This document shows positions 16,008 to 33,923 of a stretch of DNA of 33,923 bases, one piece after another. Source of the DNA: Candidatus Brocadia sapporoensis (GTDB lineage Bacteria; Planctomycetota; Brocadiia; Brocadiales; Brocadiaceae); contig NZ_MJUW02000097.1 in the NCBI RefSeq assembly GCF_001753675.2, positions 1-33,923 on the forward strand, in the 5' to 3' direction. Position 1 is the stretch's first letter; each line of letters begins with the position of its first letter. The notes below the pieces were generated by a model, which saw only the letters and a program-made list of their open reading frames with translations, was not told where the DNA came from and searched no databases. Position numbers and translations under genes: made by a program.

Positions 16008-16300
16008 AAAACCAACCCTGTCAGGGCTGACTCACGAATTTCGGTAGCAAAATGGAATGTTTCGCTAGGCATGAAAGGCCGTCAGTATATAGCAGAGGGT
16101 GAAGCCCCCTGAAAACAATAAGAACACAGGTAAATCTTAAAGGGGTGAAAGAATATTGTTGTTATTTACCCATGAGACGAGAAAGATCAATCTCTTGTCA
16201 GTATTGATCTTTCTTTCACCCCTTCGGGGCTGGTTATTGTGATGTTTTTTTCTCCAGGGGCTACACCCCTGGCTAGATTCTTTTGTCCCTTTGGGACTTA
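16008..16300. repeat. Second repeat island with nested hairpins before selA
   Basis: This holds several palindromes. The longest has perfect 14-bp arms aaggggtgaaagaa (16140-16153) and ttctttcacccctt (16211-16224), with a nested 11-bp pair gaaagatcaat (16181-16191) and attgatctttc (16203-16213) that overlaps the right arm, so the two folds are alternatives. Then ccagggg...cccctgg (about 16254-16272) and gtccctttgggac (about 16287-16299). The last ends just upstream of the selA ATG. Such motifs (ttcaccccttcggggct, ccctgtcaggg) are typical of dispersed repeats in several phyla. It codes for nothing. Confidence 0.6.
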
Positions 16301-16303
16301 TTT

Positions 16304-17791
16304 ATGCGCCAGGACATCATCAGATCAATTCCATCGGTCAATGAACTCCTTGAGTCGCCGGAAATATCAAAATTAACTGATAGGTATCCGAGACGGCTTA
16401 TTGTTGACGCAATAAGGACGGTTTTAGAAGATATTCGGCAAGCCGTGACGCACAAAAAAGGCATGTTACAACATAGCCTTAACTGCGATACCTCCCATTC
16501 ATCCCCTCCTTGCGAAGAAGGAGATCCGGGGGTGGTAAAAGGACTTGCTGAAACGCAAAAGATCGATCTCTCTCCACAAAGGCTCTCCCTCTTCGTTCAA
16601 CAATGCCTGCGGCAAAAATTCTGTGGCATCGAGCATGCCATTAATGCAACGGGGATCATACTTCACACGGGACTTGGCCGGGCGCCCATTCCGGATGTGG
16701 CAGCACAGCAGATACAAAATATCTTAAAGGGTTTCTGTACCCTGGAAATTGAAAAGAATACTGGCAGAAGGGGGGGGCGGTATCACCACATTGAACAACT
16801 CATCTGTATGATTACCGGGGCCGAAGCGGCACTGGTTGTTAATAACAACGCGGCGGCTGTCTTGTTGGCCTTGGATACCATGGCCAGAGGGAAGGAGACC
16901 ATCATTTCACGTTCCCAGCTTGTTGAGATCGGTGGGTCATTCCGTATGCCCGATGTTATGACCAGAAGCGGGGCCATATTAATCGAAGTGGGAACAACCA
17001 ACAAGACATATCTTACCGACTATCGCAATGCCATTACCGAGTGTACCGGGCTTCTCTTGAAGGTGCATCAAAGTAATTTCAAAATTGTGGGTTTTACCGA
17101 GACCGTGGATTTAAAAGACCTTGTTTCTCTCGGAAAAGAACGCAGCATCCCTGTTATGTATGATCTGGGAAGCGGCGCATTGATTGATCCGGAAAGATTT
17201 GGATTGCCTCATGAGCCGACCGTCCAGGAAAGCATAAAGACGGGGGTTGATGTCGTTACGTTCAGCACGGACAAATTGTTAGGCGGGCCGCAAGGCGGCA
17301 TTGTTGCCGGAAAAAAGAAATGGGTCGACCTGTTGAAAAGGAATCCACTGACTCGTGCCCTCCGTGTAGGGAAATTGACCATTGCAGCGCTGGAGGCAAC
17401 ACTGAAGCTGTATCTGGAAGAAGATCTTGTCACTGAAAAAATTCCCGTCCTCACCATGATTTTTGCTCCCCTTGAGACGATGGAAGAAAGGTGCAAGAGA
17501 TTTATGAGCAGGGTGACTCCGGAAACAAAGGCTTTTATGAGCATTTCTACGGTGGAAGGTTTTTCAGAGATGGGTGGCGGATCATTGCCTGGTGAAGGGA
17601 TCCCCACAAAGCTCATTTCACTCCATTCGGAAAAAATAAATGCTGATAAAATAGTCGCACAATTGCGTGGTAACACCCCTCCGATTTTTGCAAGGATTGA
17701 GCAAGAACGTGTACTTCTGGATATGCGTACGGTGTATGATGCCGAAGTGGATACGATTGCCATCGCATTGGAAAATATATGCCGTTCGTAA
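16304..17791 (+). CDS. selA: L-seryl-tRNA(Sec) selenium transferase
   Basis: A PLP enzyme that converts Ser-tRNA(Sec) to Sec-tRNA(Sec) with selenophosphate, so the cell probably makes selenoproteins. Seen: the N-terminal IPSVNELLESPEI, the INATGIILHTGLGRAPI block, EIEKNTGRRGGRYHHIE, VVNNNAAAVLLAL, and the PLP lysine in TFSTDKLLGGPQGGIVAG. The ATG at 16304 gives 495 residues, some 25-30 above the usual 460-470; the excess sits at about residues 58-82 and coincides with a repeat-like DNA insertion (see separate entry). An upstream TTG at 16283 would lie inside the repeat and is less likely. No tRNA-Sec or selB is in the window. Confidence 0.95.
   Translation: MRQDIIRSIPSVNELLESPEISKLTDRYPRRLIVDAIRTVLEDIRQAVTHKKGMLQHSLNCDTSHSSPPCEEGDPGVVKGLAETQKIDLSPQRLSLFVQQCLRQKFCGIEHAINATGIILHTGLGRAPIPDVAAQQIQNILKGFCTLEIEKNTGRRGGRYHHIEQLICMITGAEAALVVNNNAAAVLLALDTMARGKETIISRSQLVEIGGSFRMPDVMTRSGAILIEVGTTNKTYLTDYRNAITECTGLLLKVHQSNFKIVGFTETVDLKDLVSLGKERSIPVMYDLGSGALIDPERFGLPHEPTVQESIKTGVDVVTFSTDKLLGGPQGGIVAGKKKWVDLLKRNPLTRALRVGKLTIAALEATLKLYLEEDLVTEKIPVLTMIFAPLETMEERCKRFMSRVTPETKAFMSISTVEGFSEMGGGSLPGEGIPTKLISLHSEKINADKIVAQLRGNTPPIFARIEQERVLLDMRTVYDAEVDTIAIALENICRS
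16490..16540. repeat. Repeat-like insertion inside selA
   Basis: The stretch holds ctcctt...aaggag arms around gcgaag, flanked by runs of C on the left and G on the right (cccctcc...ccgggggtgg). This matches the look of a dispersed intergenic repeat, yet it is read through in frame as SSPPCEEGDPGVVKG. It lies in the SelA linker between the N-terminal domain and the INATG block, where extra length is tolerable. Confidence 0.55.
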
Positions 17792-18132: not shown

Positions 18133-20820
18133 ATGCACTCTTTATTACGCGATCGATGCCTTATCAGGTATCTTGTGGTTTGTTTATCTATTATTTTATC
18201 ATCATCGCTCATTCTCGTCCCATGTGTCTATTCGTCAAATACCATTTGCAATAATGGAGACATCATAAATACGTCTGTCATAAACAGACAAGATGACGAC
18301 ATATTTGCGCCCGATGGGTTTTCCTCGGAGGGGCAGCGGTCCGCGCGGGTATGTGCACGGGAAGGCTACAGCAAGTTTCCCCTCTGTTTTATAAAAAATG
18401 AGGGACAGATTGATGAAAGGGTGAAGTATTACGAAATGGGTGGCGGGCACCGTGTCTTTTTTGCCAAAGATGGTGTATATCTCTCATTACGGCAGAGGAA
18501 TGAAGCAAACAAAAAAAACGTCAAGAAGACGACGCCTGCAGATAGCCTTCATGAATTTATACGCCTATTTCCTCTCGGAGCCGACAGAGAGTCTGAAATA
18601 GCGGCGGAAGATTTGCAAAAAGGGGTGATAAATTACTTTGTCGGCGGTTCAGAACAGTGGCGGAGCAACATACCCACCTATGGCACCGTGGTGTATAAGG
18701 GGATTTATAACGGCGTAGATATGCGGTTTTACGGCAACAACCGCCGTCTGGAGTATGACGTCATCGTACAGCCAGGGGCAAGCCCTTCACGAGTGCAGTT
18801 GTGCTATGAGGGGATAGACGACTTGCGTTTAAGAAAGGATGGTGATCTGGAAATTGTCCTCGAAGAAGGCAGTATCGTCCAGAAAAAACCCTATATCTAC
18901 CAGATGATAGGTGGGGAAAAGATTGAGGTTCAGGGGGAGTTCAGGATATTGAAAGCAGGAGACGGAAGGCGGAAGCCGGTGGGACAGGGATATTATTTTG
19001 CGGCAAGACCACAACAGTTTATCTATGGCTTCAAGGTTGCCTCATACGACCAACGCCGTCCCATCGTCATAGACCCAACGCTGGAATACTCCACTTACCT
19101 GGGCGGGAGTGGTGAAGATTATGGTTACGGCATTGCCGTGGACGGCTCGGGATCTGCATATGTCACAGGATATACTGCCAGTAGCGATTTTCCAAAGGAA
19201 TCGGCTTATCAGGCGACTTTGGGTGGAGGGATTGATGCCTTTGTGTCCAAGTTTGATGCATCGGGTAACCTTATGTACTCCACTTACCTGGGCGGGAGTG
19301 ATGGTGACGTCGGCAGCGGCATTGCCGTGGACGACTCGGGGTTTGCATATGTCAATGGTGTTACCACTTCTAACAACTTCCCTACTACACCATCGGCTTA
19401 TCAGATGGCTTTGAGTGGATGGCAGGATGCCTTTGTATCTAAATTTGATGCATTGGGCAACCTTGTGTACTCCACGTACCTGGGCGGAAATGGTGGTGAA
19501 GAGGGCAGCGGCATTGCCGTGGATAGCTCAGGGTCTGCATATGTCACGGGTTTTACCTCTTCTAATAACTTTCCTACTACGCCATCGGCTCATCAGGGAG
19601 TATTTGGTGGAGGCAATGATGCCTTTATGTCCAGGTTTGATTCGTCTGGCAACCTTGTGTACTCCACGTACCTGGGCGGGGGCGATGCTGACAAGGGCAA
19701 CAGCATTGCTGTGGACAGCTCGGGGTCTGCATATGTCACAGGTACTACCTTTTCTAACAACTTTCCTACAACACCCTATGCTTATCAGACAATTTTTTTG
19801 GGTGGCTATAGTGATGCCTTTGTGGCCAGATTTAATTCATCGGGTAACCTTACGTACTCCACCTACCTGGGTGGAACTGCCGATGAAAAGGGCAGCGGCA
19901 TTGCCGTGGACAGCTCGGGATCTGCATATGTCACAGGCTTTACCTTTTCTTACAATTTTCCTACTACGCCATCGGCTTATCAGAAGACTTTGAGTACATA
20001 TGGTTATAGAGATATCTTTGTGGCCAGGTTTAATTCATGGGGTAACCTTGTCTACTCCACGTACCTGGGCGGGAATGATAATGATTGGGGCAGCGGCATT
20101 GCCGTGGACAGCTCGGGGTCTGCATATGTCACAGGTTTTACCTTTTCTTATAACTTTCCTACTACACCATCGGCTTATCAAAAGACTATAAGTGCAGGCG
20201 GCCTTGATGCCTTTGTGGTCAGATTTGACCCGTCGGGCGACCTCACGTATTCCACGTACCTGGGCGGGAGTGGTGGTGATTGGGGCGTCGGCGTTGCCAT
20301 GGACGACCTGGAGTCTGCATACGTCACAGGGTATACCGCCAGCAACGACTTTCCCATGAAATCGGCCTATCAGGGGGTTTTTGGTAATGGGAACTATGAT
20401 GCCTTTGTGACAAAATTAAGCCTTCTGCCGCCTCCTGTGCCAACACAGACACCTTCGCCAACGCCAGAAGTTTCACCAACAGGGGAAGTTACACCAACGC
20501 CACAGCCCACGCCACTTTGCGAGGTTGCGTATGTAATTGCCCTTCCAAGGCCGCTGATAATTCAGAAAGGGAATAGTGCAACAGAGAAGGTGACATTAAT
20601 ATGCACGAATGGAGACCTGGCTGCAGGTGTGGAAGTGACGGCAACGGTTAAGCCTGGTGGTAAGAAGTTTGCGAATGTTTCTCCGCCAGGCGCAACAACG
20701 GATGATAAAGGACAGGTAACATTCACGATTACAGCGACAGATAAAACCGGCAACGCGAAGATCGAGTTTAAGTCTGGCAGTGAGACCAGTACAGTACCCG
20801 TGAAGGTGAAGAAGAAGTGA
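18133..20820 (+). CDS. Secreted SBBP-repeat beta-propeller protein
   Basis: The 895-residue product has a long basic N terminus and hydrophobic signal (about 10-35, ending near CVYSS). An N-terminal domain at about 85-310 (FPLCFIKNEGQIDERVKYYE, VNYFVGGSEQWRSNIPTY, GVDMRFYGNNRRLEYDV) is typical of proteins that carry SBBP repeats. Seven repeats of 62-65 residues, each starting YSTYLGG and holding GIAVDSSGSAYVTG and DAFV(S/A)(K/R)F, run from about 319 to 766; seven would close a beta-propeller. A Pro/Thr linker (PTQTPSPTPEVSP) leads to a C-terminal immunoglobulin-like (Big-type) domain (about 796-895, TDDKGQVTFTITATD). It is probably exported and attached at the cell surface; the ligand is unknown. 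GGAGATAAAC precedes the ATG. Confidence 0.9.
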   Translation: MHSLLRDRCLIRYLVVCLSIILSSSLILVPCVYSSNTICNNGDIINTSVINRQDDDIFAPDGFSSEGQRSARVCAREGYSKFPLCFIKNEGQIDERVKYYEMGGGHRVFFAKDGVYLSLRQRNEANKKNVKKTTPADSLHEFIRLFPLGADRESEIAAEDLQKGVINYFVGGSEQWRSNIPTYGTVVYKGIYNGVDMRFYGNNRRLEYDVIVQPGASPSRVQLCYEGIDDLRLRKDGDLEIVLEEGSIVQKKPYIYQMIGGEKIEVQGEFRILKAGDGRRKPVGQGYYFAARPQQFIYGFKVASYDQRRPIVIDPTLEYSTYLGGSGEDYGYGIAVDGSGSAYVTGYTASSDFPKESAYQATLGGGIDAFVSKFDASGNLMYSTYLGGSDGDVGSGIAVDDSGFAYVNGVTTSNNFPTTPSAYQMALSGWQDAFVSKFDALGNLVYSTYLGGNGGEEGSGIAVDSSGSAYVTGFTSSNNFPTTPSAHQGVFGGGNDAFMSRFDSSGNLVYSTYLGGGDADKGNSIAVDSSGSAYVTGTTFSNNFPTTPYAYQTIFLGGYSDAFVARFNSSGNLTYSTYLGGTADEKGSGIAVDSSGSAYVTGFTFSYNFPTTPSAYQKTLSTYGYRDIFVARFNSWGNLVYSTYLGGNDNDWGSGIAVDSSGSAYVTGFTFSYNFPTTPSAYQKTISAGGLDAFVVRFDPSGDLTYSTYLGGSGGDWGVGVAMDDLESAYVTGYTASNDFPMKSAYQGVFGNGNYDAFVTKLSLLPPPVPTQTPSPTPEVSPTGEVTPTPQPTPLCEVAYVIALPRPLIIQKGNSATEKVTLICTNGDLAAGVEVTATVKPGGKKFANVSPPGATTDDKGQVTFTITATDKTGNAKIEFKSGSETSTVPVKVKKK
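19087..20425 (+). repeat. Seven tandem DNA repeats of about 190 bp within the SBBP gene
   Basis: The block tactccac(g/t)tacctgggcgg recurs seven times at a spacing of about 190-198 bp. Between copies, gcattgccgtgga, tctgcatatgtcac and ccatcggcttatcag are also almost unchanged at DNA level. The near-identity of repeats 3-6 suggests recent duplication or gene conversion and makes the copy number prone to change. Confidence 0.85.
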
Positions 20821-21001: not shown

Positions 21002-21961
21002 TTAATTTGTAACGGTTCTAAAAACCATTCTAAGGATTACAAGGAGCATTCCAGCAGAAAAGAAAAAAATGGTCACAAAGGTAAGTGGAATACTGGGGTT
21101 GTTTTTTACGCTGACCGAGACTCCCGGCACTGAATTTACATCCTCGAAAACAATCTTTGCTCCATAGAGCTCCTGCCCATTTTTCATTCCGATCGGCAAG
21201 AAGATCGGCTTGTCTTCTGCAGCGGAGACTAATTTTACTACTGGATAGCGATATTGGGGAGGCATATACAAGTCAGCAACGCGAACCTGTCTGCCGTTTA
21301 CGTTAAAGGTTTCATTGACTTTAAGATCGCATGAACGATCGTCTACCTTAAGGACCATGCCCGACGCTAGCCAGCCATAATCCTGCATAAGAATCTCTGA
21401 TATCCCATGCTGCAAAAGAACGGGATTATTATAACCAAGGGTGTCTGAAAATTCGATTCCGTCTTTTCTTATAGCAACAGAGGCTGTTATTTTTTTAGGC
21501 ATACCATTTGGGTACGAACTTGTCGTCAGATTGGTAACTTTCATTTTAACACCGCCAAGATCAGTCCATTCCTCTGCTACGGTTACCGGGGGTTCCGTTG
21601 TTGAATAAAGTCCTCCGACGAGATGTGCAATCAGGGTGATAACAAATCCGATATGCACAACGGATGCACCATACAGAGTAACCTTTTTTACGCCACTCCG
21701 TGTCTTTCGTATGATGGAATCAAGTGTGCACAAAAAGGTATTAATACCATAAAGAACACAGGCAAGAAACAGGAGATAAAACCACAGGTGGATTGGGTGC
21801 TTATGAATGAAGAAAAAAGAGATGTCTTCTCCGGAAAGTCCCGCATACTGGCGGGGATTGAAGTTCATAATCAGGCTGCCAATAATAAGGAGACCCGTAA
21901 CTGAAAATCCTATAAGAATACCCAGTTTTTGCGATTTAAATATTGCGTAGAGCATTTTCAT
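21002..21961 (-). CDS. resB: ResB-like cytochrome c biogenesis protein
   Basis: This 319-residue membrane protein of System II cytochrome c maturation works with CcsA to deliver haem to apocytochromes on the outer side. Three membrane segments are seen in the N-terminal third (about 14-33, 58-80, 94-117; the last holds GASVVHIGFVITLIAHLVGG with a central His), then a large extracytoplasmic domain (about 118-285) and a C-terminal segment (about 287-310). It is shorter than many ResB proteins, close to the compact form of planctomycetes and epsilonproteobacteria. GGTGGAT precedes the ATG at 21961. It lies 66 bp after ccsA. Confidence 0.85.
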   Translation of the reverse strand: MKMLYAIFKSQKLGILIGFSVTGLLIIGSLIMNFNPRQYAGLSGEDISFFFIHKHPIHLWFYLLFLACVLYGINTFLCTLDSIIRKTRSGVKKVTLYGASVVHIGFVITLIAHLVGGLYSTTEPPVTVAEEWTDLGGVKMKVTNLTTSSYPNGMPKKITASVAIRKDGIEFSDTLGYNNPVLLQHGISEILMQDYGWLASGMVLKVDDRSCDLKVNETFNVNGRQVRVADLYMPPQYRYPVVKLVSAAEDKPIFLPIGMKNGQELYGAKIVFEDVNSVPGVSVSVKNNPSIPLTFVTIFFFSAGMLLVILRMVFRTVTN

Positions 21962-22027
21962 TTTATCATATCCACCGGGGACAAACCAGAACAGAAGAAG
22001 TCTTACCGATCCACGAGAGATGTCCGG

Positions 22028-22807
22028 CTATCGAAAACTGTGAGAACTACCAATCAGAAAACTGGTACCCACGTATGTCATCATGAGTATAAAAAATCCT
22101 ACAATAGCCATAGATGGCTTGTATCGTTTTGCCTCTTGCCAATAATCAAGGTGCAGACACGTTGCATAAAAAAACCAGATAATAACGGACCAAACGACTT
22201 TTGCATCCCAGAGGAAGTATGCCCCCCATGCAACATAGCCCCATAGCCCGCCAAAAATCATCGAAACAGAAAAAATAACAAGCCCATATTGAAATCCCGA
22301 GTCAATAAGCTGGTCGTACGTTTTTTTCCCATCCCGGGTAAAATAACGCGCCACGGCAGCAGCCATGGCACTCACCCACAAGGCGTAGCAAAAGAAAGAA
22401 AGAGGAACGTGTAAAATGTACCAAATGGTAAGCATTAAGGGCGGAGCATAACTTAATCCTTTAGGAAAATAGGCCGCCGCTGCGAAAAAGCCGTAACCAA
22501 CAGCAAACAGGGACATACGGTAGACAGGGCTTTCTGTGCTGATATTTATGAGCAAGATAATGAATGTCGCAATGGCAAATCCGTTAAAGGATTCGAATTT
22601 ATTAGTTAAGGGGAAATACTCTATTGATATGCCGCGCAGCGTAATCGTTGCAATATGAAGAACGATCATTCCTGCCAGAATAGGAAAACGTAGTTTCAAC
22701 CGGGTAAATCCAATGCCCCAATACGTTGAATAAGCAACGAAACAGAGCCAATATAAATTGACTGACAAGTGGTTAAGAGAATGTGCCGTATCGATATCCA
22801 TATCCAT
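22028..22807 (-). CDS. ccsA: CcsA-type haem-handling protein
   Basis: This 259-residue, about eight-segment membrane protein is of the CcmC/CcsA haem-handling superfamily. The WWD-type loop reads GGLWGYVAWGAYFLWDAKVV, with the usual second Trp of the YWSWD form replaced by Phe (YFLWD). Flanking histidines for haem are plausible in IWYILHVPLSFFCYALW and near HSF at the C terminus. With ResB it should form the System II haem lyase. It starts 2 bp after the PPIase gene stop, clearly one operon. Confidence 0.9.
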   Translation of the reverse strand: MDMDIDTAHSLNHLSVNLYWLCFVAYSTYWGIGFTRLKLRFPILAGMIVLHIATITLRGISIEYFPLTNKFESFNGFAIATFIILLINISTESPVYRMSLFAVGYGFFAAAAYFPKGLSYAPPLMLTIWYILHVPLSFFCYALWVSAMAAAVARYFTRDGKKTYDQLIDSGFQYGLVIFSVSMIFGGLWGYVAWGAYFLWDAKVVWSVIIWFFYATCLHLDYWQEAKRYKPSMAIVGFFILMMTYVGTSFLIGSSHSFR

Positions 22808-22809
22808 AA

Positions 22810-23919
22810 TTACAAGGTAATCTCTATCTTTGTCTTTTCCCTCAGATCCTTAATTAACGCATTCATTTCAAATGCAACCAATTCTTCCCGAACCTTGTCT
22901 TTTACCTGACTGTAACTTACGTCTTTGGCAGGGGTTTTGGCAGTGACCTTGATCAGATGATAGCCAAATTCCGTTTTGACCGGATCACTCACCTTGCCCA
23001 CCTCGGTGGCAAATGCAGCCTTGGCAAAATCTTCAACCATGACGCCATGTCTGGGGAACGAGCCTAGCTCGCCGCCTGTTTTTCCTGTCGGACAGTCGGA
23101 ATATTTTTTTGCTAATTCGGCAAAATCTGCCCCCTCATCGAGTTCCTTTTTTATGGATTCTATCTTTGCCCTTGCACGGTCTATTTCCTCCTGGGTCTTT
23201 TTTCCCTTGGTATCGACCAGGATATGGCTTGCCGTAACGGTTTCGCCATTGAAGTTGCCAATATTTTTCACAAAATACTCTTCTAATGTTTTCTCCGTGA
23301 TGTTCTTGGATACATAATTTTCAATTGCGGCAGACATATCGATCGCAGTTCTTAACTCGTCAATGTTACTGCCTTGTAATTCTAAAAACTGCTCTAATGT
23401 TTTATCTTTCGTAGCAGGATTGTTTTTAATATTGTCCCGCATTTTGGTAATCTCTTTATCTACAATATCCGGAGAGACACTCAGTTTCTTTTCAGCCACG
23501 AATTGTCTTAATAAACTCTGTGTTACGAGCTGATCTGTGATTTGCTGTTCCATGGAGGATATTGCAGCGGGATTCACGTGAGTTTTAAACCGGTCAAGTA
23601 TTTTATCAAGATCTTTCCGGAGAATTTTCTCGTTATTAACCGTTGCTATCACTTTGTTCGGATCGGCTTTTTCTTTCTTGCCATGGACACTAGTAATACC
23701 ATGTCCACCAGAAACACCTTCTTCCGTTGTCATACCCAGTGAATGCATTTTTTCTGTGTCTTCTTTATTAAAATCAACATTCTTATGTATTTTTGCAAAA
23801 TCTTGTTCGGAGGACTGGCTGCTTACCAGATAACTCTCCGGTTCGTTTCTTTTGCAACCACAAAGAGATAAAACCATGAAGCTTGCAAGAACTGAAAAAA
23901 TAGCGATTCCTTTTGCCAT
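22810..23919 (-). CDS. Parvulin-type peptidyl-prolyl isomerase lipoprotein
   Basis: The 369-residue product is a lipoprotein: the signal MAKGIAIFSVLASFMVLSL ends in the lipobox L-C-G-C22. A SurA-like N-terminal helical domain covers about 85-200 (ATVNNEKILRKDLDKIL). The PpiC/rotamase domain covers about 226-325: ASHILVDTKGK, GADFAELAKKYSDCPTGK, GGELGSFPRHGVMVEDFAKA, and EFGYHLIKV. It should help fold exported proteins. Its tight link to ccsA and resB suggests a chaperone role for apocytochromes c. A small RHH-like gene lies 49 bp upstream. Confidence 0.92.
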   Translation of the reverse strand: MAKGIAIFSVLASFMVLSLCGCKRNEPESYLVSSQSSEQDFAKIHKNVDFNKEDTEKMHSLGMTTEEGVSGGHGITSVHGKKEKADPNKVIATVNNEKILRKDLDKILDRFKTHVNPAAISSMEQQITDQLVTQSLLRQFVAEKKLSVSPDIVDKEITKMRDNIKNNPATKDKTLEQFLELQGSNIDELRTAIDMSAAIENYVSKNITEKTLEEYFVKNIGNFNGETVTASHILVDTKGKKTQEEIDRARAKIESIKKELDEGADFAELAKKYSDCPTGKTGGELGSFPRHGVMVEDFAKAAFATEVGKVSDPVKTEFGYHLIKVTAKTPAKDVSYSQVKDKVREELVAFEMNALIKDLREKTKIEITL

Positions 23920-29625: not shown

Positions 29626-29653
29626 TTGTAATTTCGAGTCAATAAATTATAAT
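29626..29653 (+). promoter_or_regulatory. Candidate promoter of the DUF6754 cluster
   Basis: TTGTAA (29626-29631) and a perfect TATAAT (29648-29653) are 16 bp apart, 30 bp before the first gene of the cluster. The remainder of 29393-29625 shows nothing recognisable. Confidence 0.6.
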
Positions 29654-29683
29654 GATGTCGGCTGGTAAAAGGGGGGAAGGGAG

Positions 29684-30973
29684 TTGTCTTCCAATCGTAC
29701 GTTTCCTGTGTCTTTTTTTACGGTAAAAACATTTGTTGTGAGAAAATACTTTTTTGTTGCTGCTATTATTCTTTTATCACCATGCCTCCTGAATACAGGC
29801 ATCTTTGCTCAACTACCATCCTTTCTCATCCCACCGACAGAATTTAAGGCATTCGATACACCAAACGACGCAGGGGAAACGATATCACTGACCTGGTCAA
29901 TCTCTCCCAGTGATGCCCCCGATGTTTTCTATGTGGTATACATCGACAAGGATAAAAACGGCGACTTTGAAAAGGAGGCAATTCGCATAAAGTCTAATGC
30001 CAGTTATCGAACTGCTGCCCCTGAAATTTATGGGCATAAAAAATCGAATGGAAATTACCACTATGTTCAGATATTTCCCAAAAAGGTTTTTAACGGGGAA
30101 ACGATTGACAAGAGACGGGTCTATTACTTCAAATTAGCGATGGTTGCGGGGAATAATAAAATTGTCCTGGATACGATAGCCTCCGCCAGGGCGCATGGGA
30201 ACTGGTTGCACCTGAAAAAGACAAACAATTTTCTCATTATGATGACTCTCTCGGCCATTATCCTCTATTTTATTGTTCATGCACGGCAAAACCCCAACAT
30301 GTTTTTACGAAAGATTAGTGGATTGGATGCCGTGGATGAAGCGCTGGGACGTGCCACGGAAATGGGTAAGCCCGTGCTGTTTGTTCACGGGCTAACCGGT
30401 ATGGGAAGTATATCAACCATCGCCGCAACGAATATTCTGGGCAGGATTGCGCGAAAGATTGCAGATTATGATGCAAACTTAAAAGTCGTGAATAATGACC
30501 CCATTGTAATGTCGGTTAGTCAGGAGGTAGTGAAGGAATCGTACCTTGAAGCGGGACGTCCCGATGCCTATAGCCCGGACAATGTCTTTCTGGTTGCATC
30601 AGAGCAATTTCCATATGTTGCGGCTGTGGGAGGTATTATGACCCGCGAAAGGCCCGCCGCTAATTTTTTTGTAGGATATTTCTATGCAGAGGCATTAATC
30701 CTGGCAGAAACCGGCGCTTCTACCGGCGCTATCCAGATTGCCGGCACGGATGCCTATACCCAGTTGCCTTTCTTTATTACTACGTGTGATTATACCCTGA
30801 TTGGAGAGGAGCTTTATGCCGCCAGCGCCTATTTGTCGAGGGAACCCATGCTTATGGGTACGCTCAGGGCACAGGATGTGGGGAAAGGAATCCTCATTGT
30901 CATCTTGATATTAGGCACGATACTCGCCAGTTTCGGGCTGACATTTATCACGCATCTGTTTGAGGCTTTTTGA
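29684..30973 (+). CDS. DUF6754-type membrane protein
   Basis: The 429-residue product has a signal-type N terminus (about 19-43, FFVAAIILLSPCLLNTGIFA). A fibronectin III-like beta domain follows at about 50-165 (SLTWSISPSDAPDVFYVVYI with DKDKNGDFEKEA). A membrane segment lies at about 185-203 (LIMMTLSAIILYFIVHA). A soluble alpha/beta region covers about 210-400 (EMGKPVLFVHGLTGMGSIST, ILAETGASTGAIQIAGTDAY), then a C-terminal membrane segment (about 405-425). I believe this is the DUF6754 family, unassigned in function. It probably starts at TTG 29684 with GGGAAGGGAG in front; GTG 29738 is an alternative giving a neater signal peptide. First of four genes in one direction. Confidence 0.75.
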   Translation: MSSNRTFPVSFFTVKTFVVRKYFFVAAIILLSPCLLNTGIFAQLPSFLIPPTEFKAFDTPNDAGETISLTWSISPSDAPDVFYVVYIDKDKNGDFEKEAIRIKSNASYRTAAPEIYGHKKSNGNYHYVQIFPKKVFNGETIDKRRVYYFKLAMVAGNNKIVLDTIASARAHGNWLHLKKTNNFLIMMTLSAIILYFIVHARQNPNMFLRKISGLDAVDEALGRATEMGKPVLFVHGLTGMGSISTIAATNILGRIARKIADYDANLKVVNNDPIVMSVSQEVVKESYLEAGRPDAYSPDNVFLVASEQFPYVAAVGGIMTRERPAANFFVGYFYAEALILAETGASTGAIQIAGTDAYTQLPFFITTCDYTLIGEELYAASAYLSREPMLMGTLRAQDVGKGILIVILILGTILASFGLTFITHLFEAF

Positions 30974-31058
30974 AAAATGTGAAAAGAGTAAAAAACGTGA
31001 GGTGTTTCGAAGGATTTTTGATGATTCCGTGTAATTCCGTGAAAATTGGTGGTGAACT

Positions 31059-31712
31059 ATGAATTTCTTAAAGCGCACGATTCCGCTCATCATCGCATTT
31101 GTCATGGGCGTGCTCATGGCTATGCAGTATTATGTCCCTCATAAACTTTCACAGGACTTGCTGGAGGTAGTATCCAAATGGGATAGGATTATTGCAGGTT
31201 TTGCCGTATTTATTGGCGCCTATAGCCTGCTCCATCTCCACTGGACGAGGATTAAGCGGAAGGTGGAGGGATGGGGATACAGCGTCTTTGTCTATTTTGG
31301 GGCAATTATTACCCTGCTCTTTGGTTTTCTGAACGGGGGAAAATTTTTCTGGAATGACAAACAGGACGGGACGATGTTTGACTGGCTTTATTATTATGTA
31401 CAGGTACCGGCAGGGGCTACCATCTTTTCCATTCTGGCCTTCTTTATTGCATCAGCGGCCTACCGGACATTTCGCGCCCGTACCAACGAATCGACGGTGT
31501 TGCTTATTGCCGCTATCGTCGTTATGCTCGGAAGGGTGCCCATTGGGAATTATATCTCTCCGTATGTTCCGGCAATAGCCGACTGGATCATGGCCGTTCC
31601 CAACCTTGCAGCCAAACGCGGCATTCTTTTGGGAGTCAGTCTCGGGGCAATTGCGACCTCCCTGAAAATCATTTTTGGCATTGAACGGTCTTATCTGGGA
31701 GGAGGGGACTAA
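31059..31712 (+). CDS. Polytopic membrane protein, DUF6754 cluster gene 2
   Basis: This 217-residue, very hydrophobic protein has about six membrane segments (near 8-23, 43-60, 77-95, 113-133, 145-163, 188-207). Charged stretches between them include RIKRKVEGWGY and KFFWNDKQDGTMFD. No family is recognised. GGTGGTG precedes the ATG at 31059. Its stop TAA shares a base with the next start (TAATG), showing translational coupling. It probably forms a membrane complex with its neighbours. Confidence 0.75.
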   Translation: MNFLKRTIPLIIAFVMGVLMAMQYYVPHKLSQDLLEVVSKWDRIIAGFAVFIGAYSLLHLHWTRIKRKVEGWGYSVFVYFGAIITLLFGFLNGGKFFWNDKQDGTMFDWLYYYVQVPAGATIFSILAFFIASAAYRTFRARTNESTVLLIAAIVVMLGRVPIGNYISPYVPAIADWIMAVPNLAAKRGILLGVSLGAIATSLKIIFGIERSYLGGGD

Positions 31713-32527
31713 TGGAAAGATTTTTACGGATAGACCGTCGCATTATCTTCGCAAGCATCACGGTCGCCGTTATTGTTTCTCTTATCTTGCAGTTTGAACT
31801 GCCCATACCCGCCTCGGAACCCGTTCAGGAAATTTATGAAGAGATAGAGTCTTTGCCGAAGGGTTCCCGTGTCATGATCGCCTTTGATTATGACCCTGCA
31901 TCCAAGGAAGAACTCCAGCCCATGGCTGTCGCCTTTCTTCATCATTGCTTTAGCAGGGATTTGAAAGTTATCGGCATGACGCATTACCCGGGCGCTCCCG
32001 GTCTGGCCGAGCAGGCAATGACCTCTGTAGCCAATCAATATCAGAAAAAATATGGTGAAGACTATGTCTTTTTAGGCTATAAACCAGGGTCGGCCTCTCT
32101 CATCATTAATATGGGGGAAAACCTTTATTCAGCATTCCCCAAGGATTTTTACGGGAATGATACCACGACATTGCCGGCCTTACAGGATGTTGATTCGTTA
32201 CGGGAAATCAATTTCTTGTTCGATCTTGCGGCTGGAACGACAATCGAAACATGGATAGCCTTTGGAAAGGAAAAATATAAATTTGATATGGGCGCAGGAT
32301 GCACCGCCGTGATGGGTCCTGATATGTATCCCTTTCTTCAGTCAAAGCAGCTTACGGGTTTGTTGGGAGGTCTCAAAGGGGCGGCAGAATATGAGGCGCT
32401 GATCAGGAAAAAGGCCAATGCCGTGAGTGGAATGCGACCCCAAAGCGTGGTGCATGTGATTATTATTATTTTTGTCATATTCGGTAATATCGTCTATTTT
32501 ACAACCAGAAGGACGCGGCATGCGTAA
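31712..32527 (+). CDS. Bitopic membrane protein, DUF6754 cluster gene 3
   Basis: The 271-residue product has an N-terminal membrane segment (about 11-28, IIFASITVAVIVSLILQF). A soluble alpha/beta domain at about 40-235 contains GSRVMIAFDYDPASKEELQP, DLKVIGMTHYPGAPGLAEQA, VFLGYKPGSASLII and FDMGAGCTAVMGPDMYPFLQ. A C-terminal membrane segment ends at about 264 (VHVIIIIFVIFGNIVYFTT). The domain looks Rossmann-like, but I see no catalytic signature. GGAGGGG precedes the ATG, inside the end of the previous gene. No family recognised. Confidence 0.75.
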   Translation: MERFLRIDRRIIFASITVAVIVSLILQFELPIPASEPVQEIYEEIESLPKGSRVMIAFDYDPASKEELQPMAVAFLHHCFSRDLKVIGMTHYPGAPGLAEQAMTSVANQYQKKYGEDYVFLGYKPGSASLIINMGENLYSAFPKDFYGNDTTTLPALQDVDSLREINFLFDLAAGTTIETWIAFGKEKYKFDMGAGCTAVMGPDMYPFLQSKQLTGLLGGLKGAAEYEALIRKKANAVSGMRPQSVVHVIIIIFVIFGNIVYFTTRRTRHA

Positions 32528-33269
32528 GGATTCTAACTTTTTCGTCTTAGTGGGCACCATCGGATTGTTCGTTTGTATTAATATCTTTTTAATGGCATCT
32601 GGAAAACTTCCGTTCTCGTTTGATGGGTTTGGCGTTATCCTTGGCGCCGGACTTACTCTGGCCATCTACAGCTTCCTGTACAAGGACAATCCCGCCTTTA
32701 AGATTGCCGAGAATCTTTATGTAGGCGTTTCCCTGGGTTATACCATTATTATTACCTGGTTCAATTTCTTGAAACCCGACCTGTACGATTCCCTTATTGT
32801 GCCAATGTTTTCAAAGGCCGCAACGAAAGCCCCTCAGTATGCATTAATATTTCCTTCCATGCTGGGCGTCTTTATGTTCCTGAGATTTTCGAGAAAGTTA
32901 TCATGGCTGAGCCGCTGGACGTTTGCCTTTGTGGTGGGCCTTGGGGCAGGAGTAAGCATTCCACGAGTCATCTCGGCATTCATCCTTGAACAGATAAAAC
33001 CCTCCTTACATCCTGTCTTCTCCGGCGGAGAAACACTCTTTTCCAGCGTCAACACCTTGCTGATTATGCTGGGGGTCATCTCGGTGCTTATCTATTTCAT
33101 CTTTTCTGTCGAACACAAGGGCGCAATTGGAAAGATATCCAAGATTGGGATCTGGTTCCTCATGATCTCCTTCGGCGCTTCTTTTGGCTACACGGTCATG
33201 GGCCGGCTATCGTTACTCATCGGCCGCATTCAGTTCTTACTCAGGGATTGGCTGGGTGTTTTGCAATAA
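32520..33269 (+). CDS. Polytopic membrane protein, DUF6754 cluster gene 4
   Basis: This 249-residue protein has about seven membrane segments (for example LVGTIGLFVCINIFLMAS, GVILGAGLTLAIYSFLY, FAFVVGLGAGVSI, LLIMLGVISVLIYFIF). I start it at ATG 32520, overlapping the preceding stop by 8 nt (ATGCGTAA); an earlier in-frame ATG at 32472 would overlap gene 3 by 56 nt. No family is recognised. Its stop codon is followed within 3 bp by the 3' end of the group II intron-like element on the other strand. Confidence 0.75.
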   Translation: MRKDSNFFVLVGTIGLFVCINIFLMASGKLPFSFDGFGVILGAGLTLAIYSFLYKDNPAFKIAENLYVGVSLGYTIIITWFNFLKPDLYDSLIVPMFSKAATKAPQYALIFPSMLGVFMFLRFSRKLSWLSRWTFAFVVGLGAGVSIPRVISAFILEQIKPSLHPVFSGGETLFSSVNTLLIMLGVISVLIYFIFSVEHKGAIGKISKIGIWFLMISFGASFGYTVMGRLSLLIGRIQFLLRDWLGVLQ

Positions 33270-33272
33270 TGG

Positions 33273-33821
33273 ATAGGGGTAGGGAAGGCTTTCGCCTCCC
33301 CTTCCTCCGAACCGTACAGGCGGGTCTCCAGTCAGTGGTTACCCCTTCGGGATTAACCGTTGAGAATACAAATTGCGGATACGTGAACAATTCCTACCTC
33401 ATAATGATGACATCGATTCTCATCATTCGCCTTATGCAGGCCGTCAACAGGTATTCCGCTATAAGCCAGGTTCAAATCCGTTTCTACGGATTTCTCCAAC
33501 TTGTTTAGGCATTTCTGCCACTCACTTTTGGTTTGTCTTCCCAGCTTGCCCACTTCATACCTCCACTTTCCTGCCTCCCTTCGCTCCACATCCATTACGA
33601 TGCTTCCTCGCTCCTATGGAGGCTCTGTCTCCTGACATTGTCACTCCCTCTGTCAGGTATCCCTGATTCATGCACCTTGCCTTCCAGCCATTCCGTCTCC
33701 AACCACCCCTTGCTCCCCACCCCATCTCACGATGACGCAGTTATGATCGGTTACAGGGTTGGAAAGCGTTTCCCCTGAAGGGGACTTTCACCCCTCTGAC
33801 ACTATGCACTCTCAGGCGCAC
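33273..33821 (-). mobile_element. ORF-less, probably degenerate group II intron
   Basis: Read on the minus strand, the element starts GTGCGCC (33821 down) and soon has the domain I signature gggtgaaagtcccc. It ends with tgtacggttcggagg, then a domain VI-like hairpin ggggaggc-gaaa-gccttccc followed by tacccctat, giving a 3' AT and a bulged A near the end. These are group II intron hallmarks. The roughly 550-nt length leaves no room for the reverse transcriptase. Domain V seems damaged: gtacggttc is kept, but its gagccgtac-type partner strand is reduced to ggagacccgcc. An 80-codon frame inside (33353-33595) is not a recognisable protein. From 33822 to the window end I see nothing. Confidence 0.6.
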
Positions 33822-33923
33822 TAGGCCTTATCCAAGCGTGATTTTTTTATCGAGAGAGATGAAGTTGTTTGAAATGCCCGATTTTACTGGTTAAAATGGA
33901 GACGTGTGAAAACTTTAATAACC

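Follow-up and report, generated by a model that had tools for sequence, protein, structure and literature searches.

Actin-like (ASKHA) inner-membrane platforms include GspL/PilM, which serve type II secretion and type IV pili, and MreBCD. DUF6754 is recorded in Pfam as PF20539, an entry that gives no function and links the domain neither to an operon nor to the other protein families described here. A window of 33,923 nt, which is the whole stretch of contig NZ_MJUW02000097.1 from the anammox bacterium Candidatus Brocadia sapporoensis (Brocadiaceae) that was analysed, contained four consecutive genes (p1, p2, p3, and p4), the first of which encodes a DUF6754 protein (Table 1). These genes are best explained as the membrane module of a conserved seven-part system that also includes three families found upstream of p1 (u0, u1, and u2), and that would act as an ATP-driven inner-membrane platform (probability about 0.45). 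By analogy of working, such a platform can be likened to GspL/PilM and MreBCD, which likewise combine a cytoplasmic ASKHA protein with polytopic subunits and anchored outer domains. It differs from the secretion and pilus platforms in that a survey of neighbouring genes identified no recurring secretin, pilin, or export ATPase genes at the loci. Furthermore, u1 matched no PilM, GspL, or MreB family above cut-off, and neither PilM nor GspL was among its matches at E-values up to 0.5.

The individual folds in this system are known, whereas the system as a whole matches none of the known kinds tested. Five of the seven families are unnamed in databases, and the complete set has no recorded function. 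The open-licence papers searched contained no mention of DUF6754, PF20539, or PF13941 (the family of u1), and wider word searches returned nothing relevant; because only open-licence papers were covered, the system may have been described elsewhere. Its carriers include anammox and nitrifying bacteria, organisms of importance in the nitrogen cycle, and a precise part list eases the design of purification, deletion, and co-folding work.

Conservation of p1-p4 across bacteria

The lengths of the four open reading frames (ORFs) and the overlapping of the last three, as given in the initial annotation, agree with the ORF coordinates: p2 and p3 share 1 nt, p3 and p4 share 8 nt, and a gap of 85 bp separates p1 from p2. 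The p1 protein is a clear member of DUF6754 over the whole domain. Profile searches with p2, p3, and p4 returned no family in Pfam or NCBIfam, leaving DUF6754 as the sole named family among the four.

A total of 84,980 species genomes were scanned for DUF6754 loci, and gene order was counted in the best 80 named loci, which span more than a dozen phyla. The order p1-p2-p3-p4 was kept in 74 of them; of the remaining six, five are truncated by a contig end, leaving L162 as the single genuine exception. Carriers among these loci included Planctomycetota, Latescibacterota, Gemmatimonadota, Methylomirabilis, Nitrospira, WOR-3/Stahlbacteria, Poribacteria, Armatimonadota, Elusimicrobia, Zixibacteria, Edwardsbacteria, Fermentibacter, Coatesbacteria, and TA06. 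The DUF6754 gene was likewise followed by p2, p3, and p4 in relatives belonging to the order and phylum of Ca. B. sapporoensis, and none of 14 well-known control genomes contained DUF6754. Because the same three families adjoin DUF6754 in nearly all genomes, the initial proposal is not refuted on the ground of unrelated neighbours elsewhere. Whole p1-p4 cassettes occurred two or three in tandem at several loci (L052, L057, L064, L065, L069, L165, L171, and L174). A candidate natural fusion of p2 and p3 in L140 was rejected as a frameshift or deletion, since the junction lies inside p2 and is out of frame.

Co-occurrence was assessed for the six larger families (p1-p4, u1, and u2) in 294 Planctomycetota genomes. 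p1 was present in 76, p2 in 75, p3 in 77, p4 in 74, u1 in 74 (strong matches), and u2 in 71; all six occurred together in 63 genomes, and any of them in 81. The presence of p1 and p3 disagreed in a single genome, and at least three (G014, G037, and G313) of the four p1 carriers that lacked a p4 match have an operon that is cut by a contig end. Fisher p-values for co-occurrence ranged from 1e-50 to 1e-70, which are overstated because shared descent is ignored. On the other hand, shared descent is not the whole explanation, as the parts are retained even where they are scattered: G082 carries them at five separate loci (u1 at 0.79 Mb, u2-p1 at 0.29 Mb, p4 at 2.30 Mb, p2 at 3.48 Mb, and p3 at 3.53 Mb), and all parts are likewise kept in G160 and G143, where p2-p3-p4 were relocated away from p1. 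The gene order and the co-occurrence of p1-p4 are far beyond chance. A system whose order is kept across distant phyla, and whose genes are kept even when scattered, must have an important role in the cells that carry it.

The evolutionary distances of p1-p4 correlated at 0.81-0.88 in 114 distinct cassettes, and at nine loci carrying two or three cassettes, 49 of 54 comparisons favored native over swapped partners. Together these results show inheritance as a unit, not contact. The gene order, the genome-by-genome co-occurrence, and the retention of native partners in tandem cassettes bear out the earlier proposal of an undescribed, conserved multi-gene membrane unit, and p1-p4 probably form one physical membrane complex.

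The upstream trio u0-u1-u2

Clustering of neighbour genes identified three further families 5' of p1 on the same strand. The u0 proteins are helical and have about 125-135 amino acids (aa). In profile searches, the u1 proteins (about 600 aa) matched MutL (PF13941) and gave an ASKHA hydantoinase/MreB-like signal. The u2 proteins (about 380 aa) are soluble barrel-sandwich/KOW proteins with weak matches to RnfC_N/biotinyl-lipoyl and KOW. u2 was located directly 5' of p1 in 50 of the 80 loci, mostly together with u1 and u0, and Ca. B. sapporoensis itself carries an intact u0-u1-u2 on another contig (G000:C29:30169-33515). Several genomes (e.g., G070, G119, G198, and G278) harbored a single u1 and a single u2 despite having two cassettes, which fits a shared drive. 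The four genes had initially been taken as a complete unit; since neighbour clustering and co-occurrence place u0, u1, and u2 in the same system, the unit is larger, and p1-p4 and u0-u2 almost certainly constitute one functional system.

If u1 were what the GlmL annotation implies, u1 and u2 would serve a coenzyme-B12 enzyme and p1-p4 would be an independent neighbour. Two u1 homologues do belong to the MutL superfamily PF13941 (423 and 432 bits; cut-off, 27), so that u1 and the GlmL/MutL family (PF13941, NF040745, and TIGR01319) share the ASKHA-fold superfamily, and the trio and p1-p4 are unlinked in Ca. B. sapporoensis and in other genomes of the genus. However, u1 scored 236 bits for the GlmL equivalog NF040745 (cut-off, 475), 216 bits for Or-4 (cut-off, 600), and 168 bits for glmL_fam (cut-off, 204), all of which are below threshold. 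Glutamate mutase E (PF06368), the only B12 mutase that was looked for, was absent from all 45 tested carrier genomes. The GlmL label is therefore inapplicable to u1, which also differs from GlmL in belonging to a membrane operon. As the presence of u1 and u2 tracks that of p1-p4, a B12 partnership is very improbable; a glutamate-mutase role is unsupported, and the results suggest that u1-type proteins should not be named glutamate mutase accessory proteins. A role in defence and a phage origin are similarly unsupported: PADLOC defence models and PHROGs returned no match for p1-p4, u0, or u2 and only a weak ASKHA match for u1, and p1 was absent from phage and plasmid records.

Additional observations were made on these families. 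In Ca. B. sapporoensis, a 690-aa protein without a Pfam family is encoded directly 3' of u2 (L194:5868-7940, on G000:C29). A genome of the same genus that is 99% complete (G010) contained u1 and u2 and no p1-p4 match, through either loss or an assembly gap. Long open frames of 727-839 aa that combine a divergent u1-like sequence with an adjoining u2-like one were detected at G219:C30:71265-73736, G219:C34:25324-27828, and G177:C37:236-2712; these loci, which lie away from p1-p4 cassettes, possibly represent a second, related system.

Folds, topology, and proposed working

AlphaFold models of p1 and p3 were confident (pLDDT of 91.9 and 93.7, respectively) and confirm the fibronectin III-like (Fn3) outer domain and the two soluble alpha/beta domains that had been noted initially. 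The two polytopic proteins are p2, with six transmembrane (TM) segments, and p4, with seven. "Bitopic" was an inexact description of the other two, since p3 contains two TMs and p1 combines a signal/TM segment with two TMs. Charge bias in 130-150 homologues placed the p1 domain in the cytoplasm, the p3 domain outside, and both ends of p2 inside; hence, the Rossmann-like domains of p1 and p3 are predicted to be positioned on opposite sides of the membrane. The closest solved folds were Sir2 (Z 11.9), MT0777 (10.2), MthK RCK (10.1), transhydrogenase domain III (9.6-9.7), and carbon monoxide dehydrogenase (CODH) epsilon (9.6) for the second domain of p1, and MT0777 (9.9), CODH epsilon (9.5), and TrkA (9.1) for p3, which also matched a periplasmic sugar-binding protein (8.6). 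These likenesses concern overall fold only, with no sequence similarity, and imply no function because the fold is common; p1 was above cut-off for DUF6754 alone and not for the sirtuin (SIR2) family. Foldseek searches with the p1 and p3 models yielded no strong whole-domain match except for the Fn3 part of p1. Profile-profile comparison indicated no homology between p1 and p3, p2 and p4, or u2 and p1/p3, and no credible sequence relative with a solved structure was found for p1-p4, u0, u1, or u2.

Some of these folds could be accommodated by a membrane redox or transhydrogenase-like complex, in which the Rossmann/DHS-like domains would bind NAD(P) and an RnfC/NqrA-like barrel-sandwich in u2 would provide the electron-transfer link. 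The likeness of p1 to transhydrogenase domain III, CODH epsilon, and Sir2, that of p3 to CODH epsilon, the weak RnfC_N match of u2, and the occurrence of anammox bacteria and Nitrospira among the carriers are all consistent with it. However, fold matches to Rossmann proteins commonly reach Z 9-12 and are functionally uninformative, and the RnfC_N match (18.1 bits) is under its cut-off (25.6), which argues against membership in Rnf/Nqr. Conserved Cys/His residues were limited to one Cys in p1, two His in p2, two His and a 64% Cys in p3, and one His in p4. No conserved Cys/His sets suited to binding Fe-S, heme, or copper were present in p1-p4, which speaks against a redox complex and leaves redox centres unsupported, and no redox genes recurred beside the operon. 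This explanation is accordingly quite unlikely.

A regulated transporter or channel would assign the pore to p2/p4, an RCK/TrkA-like cytoplasmic regulator to p1, and an outer binding domain to p3. The two polytopic subunits and the Z 9-10 resemblance of p1 and p3 to MthK RCK and TrkA agree with such an arrangement, as does that of p3 to the sugar-binding protein. In contrast, neither Pfam nor NCBIfam gave a transporter family match, TrkA and channel families included, and a transporter or channel would explain neither the retention of the ASKHA protein u1 nor the lack of linked substrate genes. The TM segments of p2 contained no conserved charged residue, and those of p4 only R122 and R236. 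A transporter is therefore unlikely, and the initial term "channel-like" is unsupported because p2 lacks such residues.

The cytoplasmic face was better conserved than the outer one in all four proteins (0.69 and 0.37 for p1, 0.70 and 0.48 for p2, 0.63 and 0.56 for p3, and 0.65 and 0.44 for p4, respectively). The p1 cytoplasmic domain had a mean identity of 69% across phyla, and for its probable partners mean column identity was 73% (u1) and mean identity 65% (u2). The Fn3-like ectodomain was the variable part of the p1 family. Recurrent insertions of at least 20 aa were absent from the p1 cytoplasmic domain and the p2/p4 cytoplasmic loops; the few insertion sites of p1/p4 near the N-terminus or TM edges were alignment-edge cases. 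As the conserved surfaces are cytoplasmic and the variable ones outside, this asymmetry points to a platform with a common cytoplasmic drive and an exchangeable outer face. Separately, p3 of L061 (G097:C31:4096-5994) carried an insertion of about 340 aa in the predicted outer domain, and an outer loop of p2 was extended by an insertion of several hundred aa in G082, G160, and G143. Pfam identified no informative domain in the long ectodomains and inserts that occur in p1/p2 homologues.

In the proposed platform, p2 and p4 would form the membrane core, p1 would expose its Fn3 domain on the outside and its highly conserved Rossmann-like domain on the cytoplasmic side, and p3 would hold another Rossmann-like domain on the outer side. 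Together with the adaptor u2, u1 would bind the invariant cytoplasmic face and use ATP to power conformational or assembly cycles, which would be relayed via p2/p4 to the outer domains. These domains might then perform lineage-specific work on an envelope component or an exported substrate, the outer face being exchangeable and in some lineages duplicated while the cytoplasmic drive u1/u2 stays single. The odds that ATPase cycles of u1 drive p1-p4 are about even, and an outward-facing envelope or transport role can be put forward only tentatively; the kind of work, whether export, envelope assembly, or transport, can at best be inferred. Such an arrangement, with the ASKHA ATPase u1 and the adaptor u2 driving a four-subunit membrane module with a Rossmann-like domain on each face, could represent a new class of ATP-driven cytoplasmic-membrane machine, at somewhat less than even odds.

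Several observations weigh against this platform. The p1-p4 genes occurred without detected u1/u2 in G095, G107, and G197, u1/u2 without p1-p4 in G010 and G110, and u1 only in G129, which indicates that the two halves are imperfectly bound. The ATPase activity of u1 is a prediction, and the topology of p3 is predicted from a single criterion, the positive-inside rule. Inter-protein residue coupling was not above a neighbour-swap null in the 114 cassettes, a sample that is probably underpowered, and the invariant residues of p1 were not clustered at the expected ligand site. A conserved ligand pocket in p1 was also rejected, as nine conserved sites fell at strand ends against 9.2 expected, with no concentration; p3 displayed a weak trend only.

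Feature coordinates and neighbouring elements

Table 1. Features of the p1-p4 locus; coordinates are positions in the window.
Feature	Position	Strand	Description
Promoter-like site, 5' of p1	29626..29653	+	TTGTAA-16-TATAAT; weak, not above chance
p1	29684..30973	+	TTG start, 429 aa; ORF and DUF6754 match
p1 layout			Predicted topology: signal/TM segment aa 22-40, extracytoplasmic Fn3, TM 182-200, cytoplasmic DUF6754 Rossmann-like domain, TM 402-420
p1 Fn3-like ectodomain, about aa 45-175	29816..30208	+	Model; Fn3 chains Z about 9
p1 DUF6754 (PF20539) region, aa 171-425	30194..30958	+	398.8 bits (curated cut-off, 27)
p2	31059..31712	+	217 aa; 6 TM, N- and C-terminus predicted cytoplasmic
p3	31712..32527	+	271 aa; TM, Rossmann-like domain (predicted extracytoplasmic), TM
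p4	32520..33269	+	ATG start, 249 aa; 7 TM

The promoter candidate that had been thought to tie the four genes together is present upstream of p1, although it carries no evidential weight because the scan found nine promoter-like sites compared with 7.7 +/- 3.0 expected from shuffled sequence.

The segment 3' of p4 (33270-33870) is a repeated element with partial copies elsewhere in the genome, several of which are near contig ends, and a sub-threshold match to a group II intron domain was located at 33643-33686. The segment is probably what remains of a group II intron, which would also account for the break in the assembly there. Elsewhere in the window, a CcsA-like protein, a weak ResB-like protein, and a SurA/PpiC-type isomerase are encoded consecutively at 21002-23919, an arrangement that resembles a cytochrome c maturation cluster of system II with an isomerase of its own. 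The window also contained selA (L-seryl-tRNA(Sec) selenium transferase) at 16283-17791, and the organism thus probably makes selenoproteins. An 895-aa SBBP beta-propeller protein with DUF7948 is encoded at 18133-20820.

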